Positions 49,371 to 62,127 of a stretch of 64,000 nucleotides of DNA are shown here, piece by piece. The notes beneath the pieces are model-generated. The model made no database searches and had not been told where the DNA came from. It saw only the letters and a list, made by a program, of their open reading frames with translations. Within the stretch, counting starts at the first letter, position 1. Every line of letters begins with the position of its first letter. The stretch is from Hyphomicrobiales bacterium (lineage in GTDB: Bacteria > Pseudomonadota > Alphaproteobacteria > Rhizobiales > Rhizobiaceae), in contig UCKS01000034.1 in the NCBI GenBank assembly GCA_900473045.1, positions 62,001 to 126,000 on the forward strand, in the 5' to 3' direction. Position numbers and translations under genes: made by a program.

Positions 49371-50423
49371 TCAGTGGGGAGCGGCGAGAGAATCCCGTTC
49401 GATGAGATTGCAGTCCATCTTGGTCAGCGGATAGCCGTCTTTCCCGGATTTCCGGCCCTTGCCGAGCTGCCCGATCGCCCAGGCGCCCATGGCCCGGTGC
49501 GGCAGGATCAGCGTGCTCAGCTGTGGCCGCAGGTGGCGGCAGAGTTCGTCATCGTCATAGCCGATGACGGAGACATCCTGCGGGATTTTCAGGCCGGCGT
49601 CGCGCAGCGCGTTGTAGCAGCCCGACGCCATCTTGTCGTTCTGGCAGAAGAAGGCGGTTGGTCGGTCCTTCAGCCCGAGAAACCGTTGTGTCGCCTCGAA
49701 ACCCGAGGTCGGCGACCAGTTGCCCTCGCCAACCAGGTCGGCATCATAGATGATACCGGCCTTCGCCAATGCCCTCTTGTAGCCCTTCAGCCGGTCCTGC
49801 GCGGCCTGCATGAACGGTTCGCCGACGATGGTCGCGATGCGGCGATGGCCAAGCCGGATCAACGTTTCGGTTGCCGCAAAACCGCCAGCGGCTTCATCGG
49901 GAACGACGGACGGAAAGCGGCTTTCCGGCGCATAGCAGTTCAACAGCACGACAGGAACGGGCAGCTCTTCGAGGAAGGCCGGTGGCGTTACCTGCCGGGT
50001 AAAGATCGTCATGTAGATCAGTCCCTCGATGCCGCTACGCAGCATCGCCTCGACGGCCTTTTCCTCGCGCTCCGGATTGCCCATCGTCTGGGCGACGAGG
50101 ATGGTGGCGCCCTCATCCCAGCAGGCCTGCCGCGCGCCCTCGATGGCATTGACCGATTCCGGCGTCGTCGCCAGCTGGTCGCAGAGGAACCCGATGGTGC
50201 CGCTCCCCAGATTGCCAAGCACCGGCCGATGGATCAGCGACGCGGCGCCATAGCCCAGCGTGCGGGCCGCCTCGATCACCTTGCCGCGCGTTTCCGCCGA
50301 GATCGTCACGCCTGTCGCATTGTTCAGAACAAACGACACCGTTGCCTGCGAACAGCCGGCAAGCCGTGCGACATCCGTCATCGTCACGCGGCGCGGCGGC
50401 TTCTCATGTTTGGTTTTCGTCAA
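49371..50423 (-). CDS. LacI family transcriptional regulator
   Basis: A 350-residue repressor. The N-terminal HTH reads VTMTDVARLAGCSQATVSFVLNN, followed by the hinge EAARTLGYGAASLI. The periplasmic-binding-fold sensor includes GTIGFLCDQLATTPESVNAIEGA, IRLGHRRIATIVG, PTAFFCQNDKMASGCYNALRDAGLKIPQDVSVIGYDDDELCRHLRPQLSTL and the closing helices. The ligand is unknown. It is divergent from the phytanoyl-CoA-dioxygenase-like gene, with a perfect palindrome between the two, and probably represses that gene and itself. Confidence 0.93.
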   Translation of the reverse strand: MTKTKHEKPPRRVTMTDVARLAGCSQATVSFVLNNATGVTISAETRGKVIEAARTLGYGAASLIHRPVLGNLGSGTIGFLCDQLATTPESVNAIEGARQACWDEGATILVAQTMGNPEREEKAVEAMLRSGIEGLIYMTIFTRQVTPPAFLEELPVPVVLLNCYAPESRFPSVVPDEAAGGFAATETLIRLGHRRIATIVGEPFMQAAQDRLKGYKRALAKAGIIYDADLVGEGNWSPTSGFEATQRFLGLKDRPTAFFCQNDKMASGCYNALRDAGLKIPQDVSVIGYDDDELCRHLRPQLSTLILPHRAMGAWAIGQLGKGRKSGKDGYPLTKMDCNLIERDSLAAPH

Positions 50424-50482
50424 GACTGTTTTCCCCGGATCGAGTGGGAAAACCTAGCTCATTTATTCTCATAAGCATATTG

Positions 50483-50498
50483 ACTAATAATTATTAGT
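50483..50498. promoter_or_regulatory. perfect 16-base palindrome, candidate LacI-type operator
   Basis: ACTAATAATTATTAGT lies in the 109-base divergent region between the LacI regulator and the dioxygenase gene, 35 bases upstream of the latter. The size and symmetry fit a LacI-family site, although the usual central CG is AT here. Confidence 0.55.
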
Positions 50499-50532
50499 TA
50501 CATTACGCTGGGATGAACGGAGGAGAACGATC

Positions 50533-51369
50533 ATGAACGCACCGGCACAATTTACGTATGACCTGCAGGGCAATCTCAAGACCCTGAAGGAAGACGGCAT
50601 CACCGGACTGAAGGGCGCCTTTGCGCCCGAATGGGCCGATGCGATGCGGGAGGACATGATGACCGCTTTCTGGTCGGCCATTCAGCGTCCGGGCGGCGCC
50701 GTCGGCCGCGGTCCGCGGCGCTGGTATGTGGAAATCCATCCGCAGAATTTCGGCGGCTTCGTCGATCTGATCATGCACCCGTGGGTGATCGCCATGTGCG
50801 AGAACGCGCTGGGGCCGGATTACCAGATCGTCGAAATCGGCCTGGACGTGCCGTTCGAGGGTGCCAGATACCAGCCCTGGCACCGCGATTTTCCGTCACC
50901 GGAAGACACCTACGTGGACCGCCGCATCACGTCGCTCGCCTTCAACCTGACCGGCGTCGATGTCACGCCGGACATGGGGCCGTTCGAGATCGCACCCGGC
51001 ACCCAGTATGATGACGGCCGCGACTGGAAGCATGAGATGTTTCCCGACAAGGCGCTCTGGGGCCGGTTCCAGGACCGCGCCACCCGCAAGTTCCCGCAGC
51101 GCGGCGATATTTCCTGCCGCTCGGCTTTGACCGTCCATCGCGGCACGGAACACCTGTCGCCGATCGCAAGACCGGTCATGGTGCTCGGCGTCGATGCTCC
51201 CGGCGCCGGCCATGCCGAACTGCACGACATGATGGTGACGCAGGACTATTTCGATGCCCTGCCCGAGAAAGCCAAAAAGCACCTCGTCTGCCGCGTTGTC
51301 GACGAGCTGGTGCCGATCACCCAGAAACATGACATCGAGGGCCTGGTGATGGGCGCCGATCCGGCCTGA
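50533..51369 (+). CDS. phytanoyl-CoA dioxygenase (PhyH) family protein
   Basis: A 278-residue Fe(II)/2-oxoglutarate-dependent oxygenase. The facial triad is visible as the HxD of WHRDFPSPED and a distal His in LTVHRGTEHLS, followed by an Arg (ARPV) suited to bind 2-oxoglutarate. The N-terminal part (LKEDGITGLKGAFAPEWADAMREDM) matches the family's opening helix. A clear ribosome-binding site (ACGGAGGAGAACG) precedes the ATG. The substrate is unknown; PhyH proteins act on fatty acyl-CoAs, ectoine or natural products. It is regulated, by position, by the divergent LacI protein. Confidence 0.87.
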   Translation: MNAPAQFTYDLQGNLKTLKEDGITGLKGAFAPEWADAMREDMMTAFWSAIQRPGGAVGRGPRRWYVEIHPQNFGGFVDLIMHPWVIAMCENALGPDYQIVEIGLDVPFEGARYQPWHRDFPSPEDTYVDRRITSLAFNLTGVDVTPDMGPFEIAPGTQYDDGRDWKHEMFPDKALWGRFQDRATRKFPQRGDISCRSALTVHRGTEHLSPIARPVMVLGVDAPGAGHAELHDMMVTQDYFDALPEKAKKHLVCRVVDELVPITQKHDIEGLVMGADPA

Positions 51370-51494
51370 CGCAAAGCGTCCCTGCACGGCCAGCGACTCG
51401 TCCTTTTGTCTAACGACCCCCATGCCGGCACGATCGGAGATTTCCTTCGATCGTGTTTCCGGCTAAGCAGGAGACAAAGACGGCGGGAGGAAGC

Positions 51495-53027
51495 ATGCGC
51501 AATATCATCGACACCGTGGAAGCGCGCCGCGCCGAGGCGCGTCTCGGCGGCGGGCAGAAGCGCATCGACGCGCAGCATGCCAAGGGCAAGCTGACGGCGC
51601 GCGAGCGCATCGAGGTGCTGCTCGACGAAGGTTCGTTCGAAGAATACGACATGTATGTCACCCACCGCGCCGTCGATTTCGGCATGGCCGAACAGAAGGT
51701 GGCCGGCGACGGCGTCGTCACCGGCTGGGGCACGATCAACGGCCGCCAGGTCTATGTCTTCTCCCAGGATTTCACCGTGCTCGGCGGCTCGCTGTCCGAG
51801 ACCCATGCGCAAAAAATCTGCAAGATCATGGACATGGCCGTGCGCAACGGCGCGCCGGTGATCGGGCTGAACGATTCCGGCGGCGCCCGCATCCAGGAAG
51901 GTGTCGCCTCGCTTGCCGGTTACGCCGAAGTGTTTCGCCGCAATGCCGAGGCATCCGGCGTCATCCCGCAGATCTCCGTCATCATGGGTCCCTGCGCCGG
52001 CGGCGCGGTCTATTCGCCCGCCATGACCGACTTCATCTTCATGGTCCGCGACACATCCTACATGTTCGTCACCGGTCCGGACGTGGTCAAGACCGTCACC
52101 AACGAGATCGTCACGGCCGAAGAACTGGGCGGCGCCGGTACCCATACGAAAAAATCCTCGGTCGCCGACGCGGCCTATGAAAACGACATCGAGACGCTGG
52201 AGCAGGTCCGGCTGCTGTTCGATTTCCTGCCACTGAACAATCGCGAAAAGCCGCCGGTCCGCCCCTTCCACGACGATCCGGCCCGCCTCGAAAACCGGTT
52301 GGACACGCTGATCCCCGACAGTTCGGCAAAGCCCTACGACATGAAGGAGCTGATCCACGCGATCGCCGACGAAGGCGATTTCTTCGAGCTTCAGGAAGCC
52401 TTTGCCCGCAACATCATCACCGGCTTCATCCGGCTGGAGGGCCAGACCGTCGGCGTCGTCGCCAACCAGCCGATGGTGCTGGCCGGGTGCCTGGATATCG
52501 ACTCATCGCGAAAAGCCGCCCGCTTCGTCCGCTTCTGCGATGCCTTCTCGATCCCGATCCTGACCCTGGTCGACGTGCCCGGCTTCCTGCCCGGCGTGGC
52601 CCAGGAATATGGCGGCGTCATCAAGCACGGCGCCAAGCTCCTGTTCGCCTATAGCCAGGCGACGGTGCCGATGGTGACGCTGATCACCCGCAAGGCCTAT
52701 GGCGGCGCCTATGACGTCATGGCCTCCAAACATATCGGCGCCGACGTCAACTATGCCTGGCCGACCGCCGAAATCGCCGTGATGGGCGCCAAGGGCGCGA
52801 CCGAAATCCTCTACCGCTCCGAACTCGGCGACGCCGAAAAGATCGCAGCCCGGACAAAGGAATACGAGGAGCGCTTCGCCAACCCCTTCGTCGCCGCCGA
52901 ACGCGGTTTTATCGACGAAGTGATCATGCCCCACTCGTCACGCCGCCGCATCGCCCGCGCCTTCGCCTCGCTGCGTGGCAAGCGGCAGGAACAGCCGTGG
53001 CGCAAGCACGATACGATTCCGCTATAG
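51495..53027 (+). CDS. pccB: propionyl-CoA carboxylase beta subunit (carboxyltransferase)
   Basis: A 510-residue carboxyltransferase subunit that moves CO2 from biotin to propionyl-CoA, forming methylmalonyl-CoA. The two crotonase-like halves are recognisable: [84 protein letters not shown] in the first; [56 protein letters not shown] and [17 protein letters not shown] in the second. The ATG at 51495 follows GGGAGGAAGC. It works with PccA, encoded 2.4 kb downstream. Confidence 0.96.
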
Positions 53028-53073
53028 CCTTGGCAGTTTCAGGGACTTCGGGTGAATAGGACGAAAGCGTGTC

Positions 53074-53643
53074 ATGTCGGCAAGTATCAGTAAATTTCTG
53101 AGTTATGTTCTGCGCCACTCGCCGGAGTGCATTGGGCTTGCGCTGGACAACCAGGGCTGGGCCAACGTGGCGGAGCTGTTGGAAAAGGCGACGATTTCCG
53201 GAACATCACTTGATGCAGCGACGTTGCGAGAAGTTGTTGCTGAAAACGAAAAGAAGCGCTTCACGCTATCCGACGACGGCACCCGCATCCGGGCCGCGCA
53301 GGGGCATTCGATTTCGGTCGATCTCGGCAGACCCGCAATCACGCCTCCGCAAACATTGTTCCATGGCACGGCGACCCGCTTTTTGCCGCCAATCATGGAA
53401 AATGGGCTGTTGCCAGGCAGCCGCCAGCAGGTCCATCTTTCAGCAGATTCCTCCACGGCAAATGCGGTTGGGCAACGGCATGGAAAGCCGGTCGTCCTGC
53501 TTGTCGCCGCCGGACGCATGTTTGCAGACGGCCATACATTCTTTCAAGCTGACAATGGCGTCTGGCTGACAGACACTGTACCGGCCATCTACATCACGCT
53601 CGACGAAACAAATTTTTCGGCAGATGGTCAGGAGCAGCAATAG
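53074..53643 (+). CDS. kptA: RNA 2'-phosphotransferase (KptA/Tpt1)
   Basis: A 189-residue NAD-dependent enzyme that removes an internal 2'-phosphate from RNA; in eukaryotes it finishes tRNA splicing. Diagnostic motifs are SKFLSYVLRHSPE (catalytic Arg-His), GWANVAELLEKA, KKRFTLSDDGTRIRAAQGHS, LFHGTATRFLPPIMENGLLPGSRQQVHLS and VLLVAAGRMFADGHTFFQADNGVWLTDTVPAIYI. Bacteria lack the splicing pathway, so its substrate here is not known. It sits between pccB and the GST gene with 46 and 76 bases on either side. Confidence 0.95.
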   Translation: MSASISKFLSYVLRHSPECIGLALDNQGWANVAELLEKATISGTSLDAATLREVVAENEKKRFTLSDDGTRIRAAQGHSISVDLGRPAITPPQTLFHGTATRFLPPIMENGLLPGSRQQVHLSADSSTANAVGQRHGKPVVLLVAAGRMFADGHTFFQADNGVWLTDTVPAIYITLDETNFSADGQEQQ

Positions 53644-53719
53644 GAAATTCCACTCCCGGCTTCCCATATGCCTATGTGCTCTCCTCTCGCGCACATCTCC
53701 CACGATCAAGGACCACACC

Positions 53720-54640
53720 ATGACCGAAAAAAACCTCGCCGATAACTTTCCCGCCGGTTACGAAGTTCCGAAAGTCTGGACATGGGACAAGGGCAATGGC
53801 GGCGCGTTTGCCAATATCAACCGGCCGATCGCCGGGCCGACGCAGGAGAAGCCGCTGCCGGTCGGAAAACATCCGCTGCAGCTCTATTCGCTGGGCACGC
53901 CGAATGGCGTCAAGGTGACGATCATGCTGGAGGAACTGCTCGCAGCAGGTCATACAGGTGCCGAATACGACGCCTGGCTGATCAAGATCGGCGATGGCGA
54001 CCAGTTCGGCTCGGGTTTTGTCGACGTCAATCCGAACTCGAAGATCCCGGCGCTGATGGACCATGCGCCCAAGGGCGGCGGTGCGCCCCTGCGCGTCTTC
54101 GAATCCGCCTCGATCCTGCTCTATCTCGCCGAAAAATTCGGTGCCTTCCTTCCGGCCGACCTGCGCGCCCGCACCGAGACGTTCAACTGGCTGTTCTGGC
54201 AGATGGGCTCGGCGCCGTTCCTCGGCGGCGGCTTCGGCCATTTCTACGCCTATGCGCCGATCCACATCAAATACGCCATCGACCGCTATGCCATGGAGGT
54301 GAAGCGCCAGCTCGACGTGCTCGACCGGCACCTGGCCGACAACCAGTTCCTGGCCGGTTCCGACTACACCATCGCCGACATGGCCACCTGGCCCTGGTAC
54401 GGCAATCTGGCGCTCGGCCAGGCCTATGGTGATGCCGGGACGTTCCTCGATGTTGCGAGCTACAAGCACGTCCAGCGCTGGACGACCGAGATCGCCGCCC
54501 GCCCGGCGGTCAAGCGCGGCCGCATGGTCAATCGCCTGAGCGGCGATCCCTCAGAACAGCTGCATGAACGCCACGACGCCTCCGACTTCGATACGAAGAC
54601 GCAGGACAAGATCGCCCCGGCCAGCGCGGCCAAGGCGTAA
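53720..54640 (+). CDS. yghU: glutathione S-transferase, YghU type
   Basis: A 306-residue nu-class GST. The thioredoxin-like N-terminal domain is HPLQLYSLGTPNGVKVTIMLEELLAAG..., with the YghU-specific leader EVPKVWTWDKGNGGAFANINRPIAGPT. PNSKIPALMDH and FESASILLYLAEKFGAFLP follow. The all-helical C-terminal domain includes GSAPFLGGGFGHFYAYAP and NQFLAGSDYTIADMATWPW. YghU proteins bind two glutathiones and reduce organic disulfides or peroxides. The start at 53720 gives the family N terminus. The next gene begins ten bases after the stop. Confidence 0.93.
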   Translation: MTEKNLADNFPAGYEVPKVWTWDKGNGGAFANINRPIAGPTQEKPLPVGKHPLQLYSLGTPNGVKVTIMLEELLAAGHTGAEYDAWLIKIGDGDQFGSGFVDVNPNSKIPALMDHAPKGGGAPLRVFESASILLYLAEKFGAFLPADLRARTETFNWLFWQMGSAPFLGGGFGHFYAYAPIHIKYAIDRYAMEVKRQLDVLDRHLADNQFLAGSDYTIADMATWPWYGNLALGQAYGDAGTFLDVASYKHVQRWTTEIAARPAVKRGRMVNRLSGDPSEQLHERHDASDFDTKTQDKIAPASAAKA

Positions 54641-54650
54641 GGAGACCACG

Positions 54651-55028
54651 ATGGCCAAGCGGCCCGAGATGACAAAACACAGGGGCTTTCCCTCCGGCTT
54701 GCCGGGCCACGGCCATCATTTCACCATCCGGCGGGCGAACGAGAAGGGCGTCACACCGCTCAAGGCGCTGCAGCGCCTCGCCCGCCCGAACTCGATCGAA
54801 CAAAAGGTCGATGCCGCCTTCCTGCATGCCCTCTGGCACCAGTTCGGCACCGAGCCGTTCGAGCGCGGCAATCTCGATGCCGGACGGTTGAACCTTTTGT
54901 TCGGCCGCGAAGTCGTGCCGGCCGAGGAGCCGTTCAACGCCACCTCCTATGAAGCGTTGCTGCGGATCGATGAACGGGTTGGGCGCAAGAACTTCCCGGA
55001 AGCTTTCGAAGACGTGTTCGAGGTGTGA
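54651..55028 (+). CDS. conserved hypothetical protein, tandem paralogue 1
   Basis: A 125-residue cytoplasmic, basic protein that I do not recognise. It is clearly a paralogue of the next gene. Shared features are MAK-PEM-KHRGFP-GL, an RRAN-K-VTPL segment, ALW--FGT-PF-RGNLD--RL--LFGRE--PAE, then SYEALL and RKNFP-AFED. The last motif block is helical. There are no Cys, no signal peptide and no membrane segment. A strong AAGGAGACC ribosome-binding site precedes it. The two genes sit in one operon-like run from the GST gene to pccA, so a link to propionyl-CoA carboxylase assembly or regulation is possible but unproven. Confidence 0.72.
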   Translation: MAKRPEMTKHRGFPSGLPGHGHHFTIRRANEKGVTPLKALQRLARPNSIEQKVDAAFLHALWHQFGTEPFERGNLDAGRLNLLFGREVVPAEEPFNATSYEALLRIDERVGRKNFPEAFEDVFEV

Positions 55029-55032
55029 CGCC

Positions 55033-55443
55033 ATGGCCAAGACCCCTGAAATGCCCAAGCATCGCGGCTTTCCGCCCGGCCTGCTCGGAACCCAGTGGCA
55101 GTTCACCCTGCGCCGGGCCAATTCCAAGGTCACCCCTTTGACGGCCTGGCCGCGGCAGCGGACCATGGATCAGACGGTGGCGCTGGCCGATATCGGCTTC
55201 GTGCAGGCGCTGTGGCAGTATTTCGGCACGACGCCGTTCCAGCGCGGCAATCTGGACGGTGAGCGGCTCTGCCGCCTGTTCGGTCGCGAACTGCTGCCGG
55301 CCGAACGCGGCTTCGATCCGGCCTCCTACGAGGCGCTGCTGAAGTTCAACGAGCCCTTGGCCCGCAAGAATTTTCCGCAGGCCTTCGAGGATGAGAAGAA
55401 GGACGCGAGCCCGGCGCGCGTCACCAGGAAAACCGCCGAATGA
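55033..55443 (+). CDS. conserved hypothetical protein, tandem paralogue 2
   Basis: A 136-residue protein about half identical to its upstream neighbour over its first 120 residues, with an added charged C-terminal tail (EDEKKDASPARVTRKTAE). All the blocks listed for paralogue 1 are kept, including FGT-PF-RGNLD and RKNFP-AFED. It begins four bases after the first gene, and its stop overlaps a possible pccA start (ATGA). Tight spacing on both sides indicates translational coupling with pccA. The function is unknown. Confidence 0.72.
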   Translation: MAKTPEMPKHRGFPPGLLGTQWQFTLRRANSKVTPLTAWPRQRTMDQTVALADIGFVQALWQYFGTTPFQRGNLDGERLCRLFGRELLPAERGFDPASYEALLKFNEPLARKNFPQAFEDEKKDASPARVTRKTAE

Positions 55444-55463
55444 GCGAGCGAGGTCAGCCATCG

Positions 55464-57467
<2,004 letters not shown>

Positions 57468-57490
57468 TGCTGTGCCGGGGAAAACTTGAG

Positions 57491-57662
57491 CCCCTCACCT
57501 ATAAAATCTAGCACTTAGCTTCGCTAAGTCCTGATTTTATGTCCTCTTCCGCAAGGGAGAGGGAAGCCGCAGCGACGGCGGCGATATATCTCCTCCTTGC
57601 GGGAGAGAAAGCAATTTCAACATCTTAGCTTCAGCTAAGTGTTAGAAATTGCAAGTGAGGGG
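57491..57662. repeat. composite palindromic element with two related inner hairpins
   Basis: CCCCTCAC (57491-57498) and GTGAGGGG (57655-57662) form the ends. Inside, a 40-base palindrome ATAAAATC...GATTTTAT (57501-57540) and a 42-base palindrome GCAATTTC...GAAATTGC (57611-57652) share the core CTTAGC-TTC(A)-GCTAAG but differ in their outer arms. Between them lie CTCTTCC-GCAA-GGGAGAG-type hairpins. Confidence 0.75.
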
Positions 57663-57773
57663 GTCCGCGTTGGAATGGGAAGGGAGAAGGGAGCGCAATT
57701 GGAAACCAAAAAATCGACCGATTCTGGCCGCCTGCATTTTCCCCGCCCAAAGCACCCGTGCCATACTCTATCC

Positions 57774-57818
57774 ATCCCGCCATCGGATACGCTGCCAGGC
57801 GTGGCAGTCAGGCGGGAT
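57774..57818. repeat. nested hairpin unit
   Basis: ATCCCGCC (57774-57781) pairs with GGCGGGAT (57811-57818), enclosing CTGCCA-GGCG-TGGCAG (57792-57807). It is part of the pccA-scpA mosaic. Confidence 0.55.
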
Positions 57819-58047
57819 CGGCGCTTGGTGCAAGGGGATGACGCAAATCCTTTCATCGGGGGTCTGCGGAAAATGGTCTCCCTCCGGCGACAGGGGAGAA
57901 GCGGTGAGGCAACGGATCGTCCTTCCCGCTTCGGATGCCCGAAAGAGCGCGCCGGGCGTGCCTGTGCGGCACACAGGGTGGCAGACGGAATGGTTTCGCC
58001 GGGCATGCCGAATGTCCGTCCGATTTCTCTTCTATCGTCCGGGTTGA

Positions 58048-58068
58048 TCCTCGGGTTTAACCCGAGGA
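58048..58068. repeat. short palindrome CCTCGGGTT-T-AACCCGAGG
   Basis: A perfect nine-base inverted repeat around a single T. It resembles the terminal hairpin of the rhizobial intergenic elements at 13.7 and 16.4 kb (TCATCCTCGGG-type ends). Confidence 0.55.
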
Positions 58069-58345
58069 CGAAGACGGCGACGGGGAATTCGGAGGCACCG
58101 GCGGTGGCCGGGTGGAGTGTTGCCGATAAATTGGTTCGGCCGGGCTCCATCGGGTCAGACGAACACCATTCTGGCACGTCACCTCAGAGGGACCCAAGTC
58201 GCAGGCAAAAACCGCTGAACGGGGCGCTGAAGGGTGCCATCTCTTCTACTCTCTCGCGGCAGCTTCCAGCGCCCCGTCCGAGTGTCCTGAAAGCAAACCC
58301 ACGGCGCGGATCGCGCGCGTGGTTGAAGGCGGTTGAGGCAGAGTT

Positions 58346-58472
58346 CTACCTCCCCCTTGAGGGGGGAGGTCGCCGCAAAGCGGCGGGTGGGGGTGATTGT
58401 CAGGGACGCTTGACGCGTCACCCCACCCCGGCACTGCGTGCCGACCCTCCCCCTCAAGGGGAGGGTGTATAT
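58346..58472. repeat. CCTCCCCCTTGAGGGG palindromic pair upstream of scpA
   Basis: CCTCCCCCTTGAGGGGGGAGG at the left and CCCTCCCCCTCAAGGGGAGGG at the right are each self-complementary. Between them GCGGGTGGGGGTGA is mirrored by TCACCCCACCCCGGC. The whole is an inverted pair around a roughly 25-base centre, ending 26 bases before scpA. Confidence 0.75.
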
Positions 58473-58497
58473 CTGATCGACGCAAGGAGACTGAGCC

Positions 58498-60639
<2,142 letters not shown>

Positions 60640-60805
60640 AGCGAGAATTCGCCACAATTAATCATCGCTGAAAAGTTGTGCTTCCGATTTCAAGGAAATG
60701 TCGCATTGTGTTCTCGTGCTCGGGTGATTCGCCTCATGTGCCTGCGTCCAGGCCGGATTGAGAGCAGAACGACAACGCTAAATGATTTAGCCGGGGGGCA
60801 GCGCA

Positions 60806-60994
60806 ATGCAGAAGCGCGACGACGTCGAAAACTGGGCAGTTTACAGGGCACAACAAATTTTGATGCGCGAGGGCATGGACCTCGCTCTGTCGGCACGCGA
60901 TTTCGACAGCGGCGCCATCAGAGCCAAGGGCAAGCTTCTCGCCATGGCGATCGCGGCCTCCCTGGTCGAAGCGTCGGCAGCCCGGGCGGATTGA
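60806..60994 (+). CDS. small hypothetical protein
   Basis: A 62-residue, probably helical protein (ENWAVYRAQQILMREGMDLALSARDFDSGAIRAKGKLLAMAIAASLVEASAARAD). A GGGGGGCAGCGCA ribosome-binding site precedes the ATG, and the composition is that of a soluble protein. I do not recognise the family. No clear neighbour relation was seen, although it sits on the same strand as scpA. Confidence 0.45.
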   Translation: MQKRDDVENWAVYRAQQILMREGMDLALSARDFDSGAIRAKGKLLAMAIAASLVEASAARAD

Positions 60995-61140
60995 CCGGGC
61001 AAGCGGAACCTTTCAGAAACCATATCGTTACCCGGCTCCACCGCCGCGTTTCACCCCCCAAATCTGGGAATTGTCAGCGCCTCCCTTGGCTCTAGACTGT
61101 TTCTTCAAATCGGGTGTGTTTCGAGCGATAGGGTGAAGCA

Positions 61141-61347
61141 ATGTCGTTTCTGTCGGACATGGCCTTGAACCAGAGTGAAATCGAAGTGGTCTGTGGCGCG
61201 CTGGAGGAATGGTGCGAGGAAACCCGCACGGCCCTCGACAGCGACGATGGCCGCGACGTCGCCACCGTGATGCTCGGCCTCTACAAGACCGGCCACGGCA
61301 CCAAGGACTCGATTCTCGAAGCGATGCGCCGGGTCAACGGCGAGTGA
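61141..61347 (+). CDS. conserved small hypothetical protein
   Basis: A 68-residue acidic, helical cytoplasmic protein (MALNQSEIEVVCGALEEWCEETRTALDSDDGRDVATVMLGLYKTGHGTKDSILEAMRRVNGE). The tidy helical pattern and normal codon use argue that it is a real gene. The upstream GATAGGGTGAAGCA gives a modest ribosome-binding site. The function is unknown. The HxlR gene follows after 46 bases. Confidence 0.55.
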   Translation: MSFLSDMALNQSEIEVVCGALEEWCEETRTALDSDDGRDVATVMLGLYKTGHGTKDSILEAMRRVNGE

Positions 61348-61393
61348 TCCCGAGCGACTTGCAGGATGCAAGCCGAGCCTCTACATAAGAGCC

Positions 61394-61840
61394 ATGCAGC
61401 GCCGGAACTTCGATGAAATGAACTGTCCCATCGCCCGCACCCTCGACCGGGTGGGCGAATGGTGGAGCATCCTCATCCTGCGCGATGTTTTCTTCGGCCG
61501 CACGAAGTTCGATGAATTCCAGAAAAGCACGGGCATCGCGCCGAACATCCTGACCCGCCGGCTGAAATCGCTGGTCGAGGCCGGCCTCCTGGAAAAACGC
61601 GCCTATCAGGACCGGCCGGTGCGCTATGAATATCTGCTGACAGACATGGGGCGCGAGATGCAGCCTTTGCTGATCGCGCTATCGATGTTCGGCAACCAGC
61701 ATTTCGCCGATCGCGGCGTCACCATGCGGTTGACCGATAAGGAAACCGGTGCCGCAGCACAACCGGTCTATATCGACAGCCTGACCGGCAAGCCGATCGA
61801 TGCCGCAAATTTCTCCCTGAAATCGGTTCACCTGGCCTGA
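61394..61840 (+). CDS. HxlR family transcriptional regulator
   Basis: A 148-residue HxlR-type winged-helix regulator. The family opening CPIARTLDRVGEWWSILILRDVFFGRTKFDEFQKSTGIAPNILTRRLKSLVEAGLLEKRAYQDRPVRYEYLLTDMGRE is fully visible, with the Cys used for redox sensing in some members (CPIA). A longer C-terminal tail (DKETGAAAQPVYIDSLTGKPIDAANF) extends it by about 40 residues beyond the minimal domain. Its target is unknown. It lies upstream of the catalase gene on the same strand, 287 bases away. Confidence 0.9.
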   Translation: MQRRNFDEMNCPIARTLDRVGEWWSILILRDVFFGRTKFDEFQKSTGIAPNILTRRLKSLVEAGLLEKRAYQDRPVRYEYLLTDMGREMQPLLIALSMFGNQHFADRGVTMRLTDKETGAAAQPVYIDSLTGKPIDAANFSLKSVHLA

Positions 61841-62127
61841 ATTTTCCCCACGAGGCTGATGGCCGTGCGATCCCCGGCCGACCGTGTCACCAACGCGATC
61901 CGTGTCAGTATGTGTGGTCCAGCGTTTGCGATAATCACCAAAACTGGAAGTGCTGGGAGGGTCCTTCAAATGCCGGATGTCCGCTGGTAGCCGCCCATCT
62001 CGCTGTGAGGCGCGGTAGCCAATAACAGCTGGCCGACCGGTGGATTTGGAAAAGCCCCACATTGAAGGGAACAAAAGGCCGCCACGGGAGATTGAGGTGC
62101 ACCCATTCCCGGTATCGGAGACCTTTC

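Follow-up and report, generated by a model that had tools for sequence, protein, structure and literature searches.

A small protein family without a name beside the propionyl-CoA carboxylase genes of Rhizobiaceae and Rhodobacteraceae

What is the function of two small genes that lie end to end in front of the gene for the alpha subunit of propionyl-CoA carboxylase (PCC)? This question was raised by a stretch of 64,000 nucleotides from a Hyphomicrobiales bacterium of the Rhizobiaceae (NCBI assembly GCA_900473045.1, contig UCKS01000034.1, positions 62,001 to 126,000 of the forward strand), which is called the window below. The two genes are termed U1 and U2 here, and the protein family comprising both is termed U. 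An earlier note on the window had placed the pair between a YghU-type gene and pccA; the coordinates and the neighbours of both were confirmed.

54651..55028, + strand: U1, 125 aa, family without a name
55033..55443, + strand: U2, 136 aa, paralogue of U1 with a longer C-terminal tail
55464..57467, + strand: pccA, propionyl-CoA carboxylase alpha subunit (biotin carboxylase, BT and biotin carrier), likeliest start ATG 55464

The gene downstream of U2 was assigned to PccA by its PCC_BT domain (E=4.8e-32). There is strong evidence that the linkage of U to the pcc genes is conserved in two large families plus one further genome. As a tentative answer, with a probability somewhat short of even, U would be an accessory protein dedicated to PCC, acting in trans, most likely on PccA, and useful rather than essential.

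Conservation of U beside pccA

U was traced in 151 genomes of the window's family, 100 genomes of a second family (f25), an order sample of 150 and a class sample of 385 genomes. The second family was read as Rhodobacteraceae because proteins of Shimia, Phaeobacter and Ruegeria were among the matches listed for one of its members, at 83-96% identity. The presence of PccA was scored by the PCC_BT domain, and U was counted as linked if this domain followed within 4 kb downstream on the same strand.

By this definition, U was linked upstream of pccA at 85 of 92 places in f25 and at 42 of 51 places in the window's family; the rough chance of this position was 0.0005 per genome. At five of the seven other f25 places, the contig was broken or PccA had diverged beyond the reach of the domain model, and tblastn showed U beside pccA. 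In one genome of the window's family, G594, U and a nearby pcc operon face each other on opposite strands. Copies about 37-39% identical to U1 were located between pccB and pccA in G752, a genome of a third family, and in G472. The G752 copy (about 37%) was aligned by BLAST mainly over its C-terminal part, and a search with it gave Rhodosalinus and Roseovarius proteins among the matches listed (E about 1e-15). Gene order with pccA was thus conserved in two families, G752 and G472, and linkage in distant genomes, which the earlier note had proposed as its test, largely held.

Among 37 named-record loci near the window, pcc genes were detected beside U in 36 (tblastn), the exception being L034, labelled Rhizobium tropici; an open reading frame (ORF)-based recount of the same loci gave 35 because L004 holds only part of pccB. 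In an Agrobacterium vitis plasmid record, in which two places match U, pccB is followed by a pair of hypothetical genes, of which one matches U, and then by pccA and mutase; genes of valine catabolism lie next to them. The order in a Paroceanicella plasmid record is pccB, three small genes including RidA, U, one small gene and pccA. A Shinella plasmid record holds yghU-U with no pcc gene within 6 kb, and a Rhizobium sp. CCGE532 plasmid record holds U without yghU and without pcc genes.

Ten query genes from the space between pccB and pccA were compared across loci, and only U was present in all 57 Rhizobiaceae and all 20 f25 loci. The gene kptA was found in 5/57 and 0/20, and yghU in 45/57 and 0/20 of these loci, respectively. 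DUF6497 (16/20 f25 loci), a cupin, RidA and three small f25 ORFs were found in 0/57 Rhizobiaceae loci.

U was present in 49 of the 151 genomes of the window's family, 91 of the 100 f25 genomes and two of the 150 in the order sample (the window itself and G752). In the class sample, where U was found in five genomes (the window and four f25 genomes), a broader profile built from A2, a 34-row U alignment including the two most diverged copies, gave four extra matches at E 0.08-0.09 that were taken as noise. PccA was present in 135/151 genomes of the window's family, 97/100 of f25 and 215/385 of the class sample. It accompanied U in 49/49 and 91/91 U genomes of the two family samples (in G414 and G472 by tblastn), and no U without PccA was found among these 140. 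Fisher's test of the co-occurrence gave p values, uncorrected for kinship, of 0.0015 for the window's family, 0.09 for f25 and 0.07 for the class sample.

Two U matches came from records labelled Arenimonas (L019, a metagenome-assembled genome) and Roseateles (H6, a plasmid match). The U of each resembles that of Rhizobiaceae (89% and 72% to the window's U1, respectively), and the records are possibly mis-binned or mislabelled.

Sequence, duplication and predicted fold of U

U1 and U2 share 70 of 121 identical residues (58%; 67% positives), in agreement with the earlier estimate of about half identity over some 120 residues. They are spaced by 4 nt, and an AAGGAG sequence resembling a ribosome-binding site precedes U1. 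Ratios of dN/dS were 0-0.13 for U1 (against seven relatives) and 0.08-0.14 for U2 (against four relatives); because these are low, U1 and U2 are called real genes under purifying selection.

Protein searches returned 6003 matches to U1 and at least 7996 to an f25 member. Among the best 120 listed per query, all names were hypothetical or uncharacterized, except for three UniRef entries named Fido domain-containing (P0027, P0033 and P0052). Comparison of 34 U members to Pfam at E up to 1 hit two families with one member each (best E 0.099), and comparison to PHROGs hit two unnamed families in 4/34 members (best E 0.035). None of these matches was usable, NCBIfam gave no usable match, and PADLOC gave no match. 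U is a real family, nameless in the libraries searched. The earlier note had recognised neither protein, and no match to a family of unrelated function, which would have spoken against its proposal, was found.

The sequence blocks listed in that note proved to be conserved blocks of the family. Invariant columns of A2 are P14, D54, F70, R72, G73, N74, L75, D76, R79, E87, F95 and P116, with F-x-RGNLD-x-x-R as the core motif. The N-terminus is basic, the net charge over the first 50 residues being +7 in U1 and +6 in U2.

In the U tree, U2-type rows formed one clade apart from U1 (13 of 57 rows, SH-aLRT 99), and U1 grouped with the U of other Rhizobiaceae that carry one copy; row L017_a, an ORF matched by the profile by chance, is to be disregarded. 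Both U1 and U2 were present in 27 of the 37 near loci, and a U2-type copy alone was present in L112. U is duplicated in the window, and selection maintains both U1 and U2. No third copy was found in the window's genome (6.78 Mb, 125 contigs searched).

Single-chain structure prediction of U gave a helix at 49-65, a short strand, a helix at 77-83, a strand at 88-90, a loop and a strand at 103-106. This order of elements resembles that of winged-helix proteins (MarR/ArsR, forkhead, cullin WHB), whose fold U may share. Foldseek yielded no match to U at E 0.001 or below. A weak profile match was obtained to 2cpm_A (SPAG7; E=0.036, profile positions 25-97), which we take to be an R3H domain.

Likeness to Fido (Fic/Doc) proteins was considered, since PFxRGN of U resembles the Fic motif PFxxGN. 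The Fic catalytic motif is HxFx[DE]GN. In the invariant RGN of U, its D/E is replaced by R, and the rest of the U motif differs by a 3-residue insertion. The place of the Fic His is occupied in the 34 rows of A2 by E (23), Q (7), T, A, S and H (one each, the last in L071). Alignment of U to 29 Fic segments by hhalign reached probabilities of 13% and 6% over 18 and 15 columns, and no Fic/Doc chain was among the rows listed by structure searches with U. Membership in Fido was rejected on the motif His in 1/34, the missing Pfam Fic match and the low hhalign value; the resemblance is only local.

The pccA start and neighbouring genes

The earlier note had read the overlap of the U2 stop with a possible pccA start as translational coupling. 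The letters are as described: ATGA at 55440-55443 overlaps the U2 stop with ATG 55440, which is in frame with pccA in the window. The conserved pccA start, ATG 55464, opens MIQKILIANRGEIACR. In comparison to four relatives (L033, L007, L015 and L021), the window contains four extra bases between the two ATGs, and ATG 55440 is in frame for this reason; in the relatives this ATG does not share the frame of pccA, and 16 nt separate the U2 stop from the pccA start. ATG 55464 is thus most likely the pccA start. The four extra bases (within 55440-55463) may lead automatic annotation to extend PccA by 8 residues.

In 21 of 76 loci with both genes, pccA starts at most 40 nt from the U stop. Tight spacing recurs in L103 (0 nt) and L184 (-4 nt); the spacing in the remaining loci is larger, in f25 mostly hundreds of bases. 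Translational coupling as a general rule was rejected, as the overlapping ATG is out of frame in four relatives and the spacing varies over the 76 loci.

All genes around U lie on the + strand of the window in the order pccB, kptA, yghU, U1, U2, pccA, a gap of about 1 kb and a mutase gene. The other features are as follows.

51495..53027, + strand: pccB, carboxyltransferase subunit (start ATG 51495 probable; the mechanical ORF begins at GTG 51453)
53074..53643, + strand: kptA/Tpt1, RNA 2'-phosphotransferase, rare at this place
53720..54640, + strand: yghU, glutathione-dependent disulfide-bond oxidoreductase
57513..57529, + strand: terminator-like hairpin 3' of pccA, from a consensus scan
58498..60639, + strand: methylmalonyl-CoA mutase, the next pathway step, assigned by similarity; the like-placed A. 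vitis gene is annotated so

The yghU product matched NCBIfam PRK11752 above the cut-off (E=4.1e-155). The consensus scan listed no + strand terminator-like site between 53000 and the pccA start and no promoter-like site in 53000-58600; Rfam showed nothing above the gathering score in 50000-62000. Mechanical ORFs in 57530-58497, after pccA, contain PLEGGG/PPPQGEG-like runs, typical of rhizobial palindromic repeats.

The RNA 2'-phosphotransferase gene was seen inside the pcc cluster in the window and in 4/37 near loci. In Rhizobiaceae, yghU is itself pcc-linked: two loci that lack U (L136 and L143) still have it between pccB and pccA. DUF6497 may also be pcc-linked, in Rhodobacteraceae-like loci (L121:2991-4492, L157:447-941).

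Possible roles of U

U was read as a probable PCC accessory because one copy sits at the same place in most Rhodobacteraceae and in about a third of the Rhizobiaceae sampled. From this linkage and the co-occurrence, together with the PccA genomes that have no U, it follows that U would help PCC or its expression without being required. The earlier proposal of a role in PCC thus retains its argument from linkage and loses that from translational coupling. In the accessory reading, U would be a small soluble protein dedicated to PCC. Action in trans is suggested because U is kept intact where it is separated from pccA; the presumed contact would most likely be with PccA. Its role would be non-catalytic, in stability, holo-complex formation or tuning of activity, with a putative effect on the enzyme rather than on its expression.

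Distances were compared over 63 loci with U, PccA and PccB. U distances followed PccA beyond PccB with a partial r of 0.39 (17 of 999 permutations as high), and PccB beyond PccA with 0.24. The within-family values were 0.36 (f25) and 0.29 (window's family) for PccA beyond PccB, and -0.21 and -0.01, respectively, for PccB beyond PccA. This tracking would lend weak support to a role directed at PccA.

A number of observations weigh against a PCC accessory. No U match was found in 86 of the 135 PccA genomes of the window's family and in eight of 97 in f25 (one of the eight, G412, is only 86% complete), so U does not occur wherever PccA occurs; in the class sample U is present in five genomes but PccA in 215. 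Of 20 fetched loci without U, 16 keep pccB by pccA. Some pccB-pccA operons that are otherwise very similar have no U, so U is no general requirement for making PCC. In the window's genome, a second pccA (L104, G000:C37:36000-42283), 82% identical to the window's pccA, lies beside a second mutase gene, with no U in the readable 6.3 kb. The scattered homologues that the earlier note had named as a ground for refutation do exist, as a minority: eight of 51 U places in the window's family are unlinked to pccA, and two of 92 in f25 (G459 and G467) show no pcc gene within about 5 kb of U. The distance correlations are also sensitive, since omission of L103 and L118 gave 0.18 and 0.19, with PccA and PccB not separated, and the values by domain conflict. 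The loci dropped were similar to those of the PccA tree, plus L188.

That tree of 90 PccA sequences leaves out 18 loci (short, near-duplicate or contig-end) and PccA ORFs under 550 aa. PccAs with and without U are interleaved on it, the label changing 10 times, at least six of the changes being forced by starred branches; U as the mark of a PccA subtype was rejected on this ground. Shuffled labels gave a mean of 19.2 changes, and 0/500 shuffles were as low as 10. The count is blind to gain versus loss, and repeated loss fits the shared position of U. PCC_BT bit scores in f25 had medians of 132.9 with U (87 values) and 93.2 without U (eight values), contig-end fragments of the U-bearing genomes G444 and G480 being left out. 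Five U-less PccAs of f25 were more diverged in every domain, but so were their PccBs, and 11 U-less PccAs of the window's family were not more diverged. A tie of U to BT-domain divergence, seen in f25, is not claimed because the window's family does not show the divergence.

Three other explanations were weighed, and the accessory reading is favoured over each. The most probable of them, though unlikely, is that U is a regulator that binds nucleic acids, built of a reduced winged-helix-like core and a basic N-terminal arm, and that it tunes expression or translation of the pcc genes or of propionyl-CoA metabolism. Slightly less likely is that U is a passenger carried along in an ancestral pcc operon while serving some unrelated housekeeping function. 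Its repeated absence from working pcc operons and its retention at unlinked places would suit a passenger, whereas U stayed in the space between pccB and pccA while its neighbours there changed from one family to the other, and none of the 140 U genomes lacked PccA.

It is improbable that U partners YghU or serves another thiol or redox function and is tied to pcc only by a shared operon. The gene yghU is near U in 30/37 near loci, in 15/20 further loci of the window's family and in 8/9 of its places not upstream of pccA, a point that also tells against the accessory; it adjoins U in seven of the eight genomes of this family with U away from pccA. It is absent from the 20 f25 loci searched, however, where U stays upstream of pccA, and the two loci with yghU between pccB and pccA and no U speak against a partnership, as do the U alignments, in which no Cys is conserved.

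A dedicated helper of a propionyl-CoA pathway enzyme would have a precedent in MeaB, described for C. sphaeroides, which helps to insert the B12 cofactor of methylmalonyl-CoA mutase (PMC12632250). By description U is set apart from MeaB, as no Pfam family matches U and many genomes with PCC lack it. In C. sphaeroides, growth on propionate/HCO3- is lost when transposons hit the gene cluster of the methylmalonyl-CoA pathway; the excerpted text of the same paper names pccB, pccA, mcm, pccR and meaB and no small gene (PMC12632250). From D. shibae, PccA and PccB came off a Streptactin column, which the authors explain by their biotin; Dshi_1084 is a further co-eluting protein, left unexplained (PMC10890935). 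A small gene, which may or may not be U, shares a transcript with SPO1094 (a putative PCC gene) and SPO1095 (PMC3305630, in excerpt). Locus tags of R. sphaeroides, Paracoccus, Ruegeria and D. shibae that might belong to U led to a single paper, in which SPO1099 stands in a target table only. The excerpts of PMC10370305 and PMC4809877 make no mention of U, and none of the titles and abstract openings listed in searches of an open-licence library names the U gene.

The crystallised alpha6-beta6 PCC was a recombinant Ruegeria/Roseobacter chimera (Huang 2010, as cited in PMC10148081). We place its source genera in the group in which 91 of 100 genomes carry U, whereas only alpha and beta subunits are named in the excerpted text of PMC10148081. 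A bolder form of the accessory reading, which is doubtful and clearly less probable than the general one, is that U is an undescribed third PCC protein of Rhodobacteraceae and part of the Rhizobiaceae. With an arm and a winged-helix-like domain, it would bind PccA and promote or gate assembly or biotinylation; the recombinant enzyme would have been solved without it, and the window's lineage would have split it into two specialised copies.

U is an uncharacterised protein that keeps its place between the two pcc genes in most of the genera sampled from a major marine family. Should it act on PccA, recombinant work would have overlooked one level of control or maturation; if it is a regulator, it would add to PccR.
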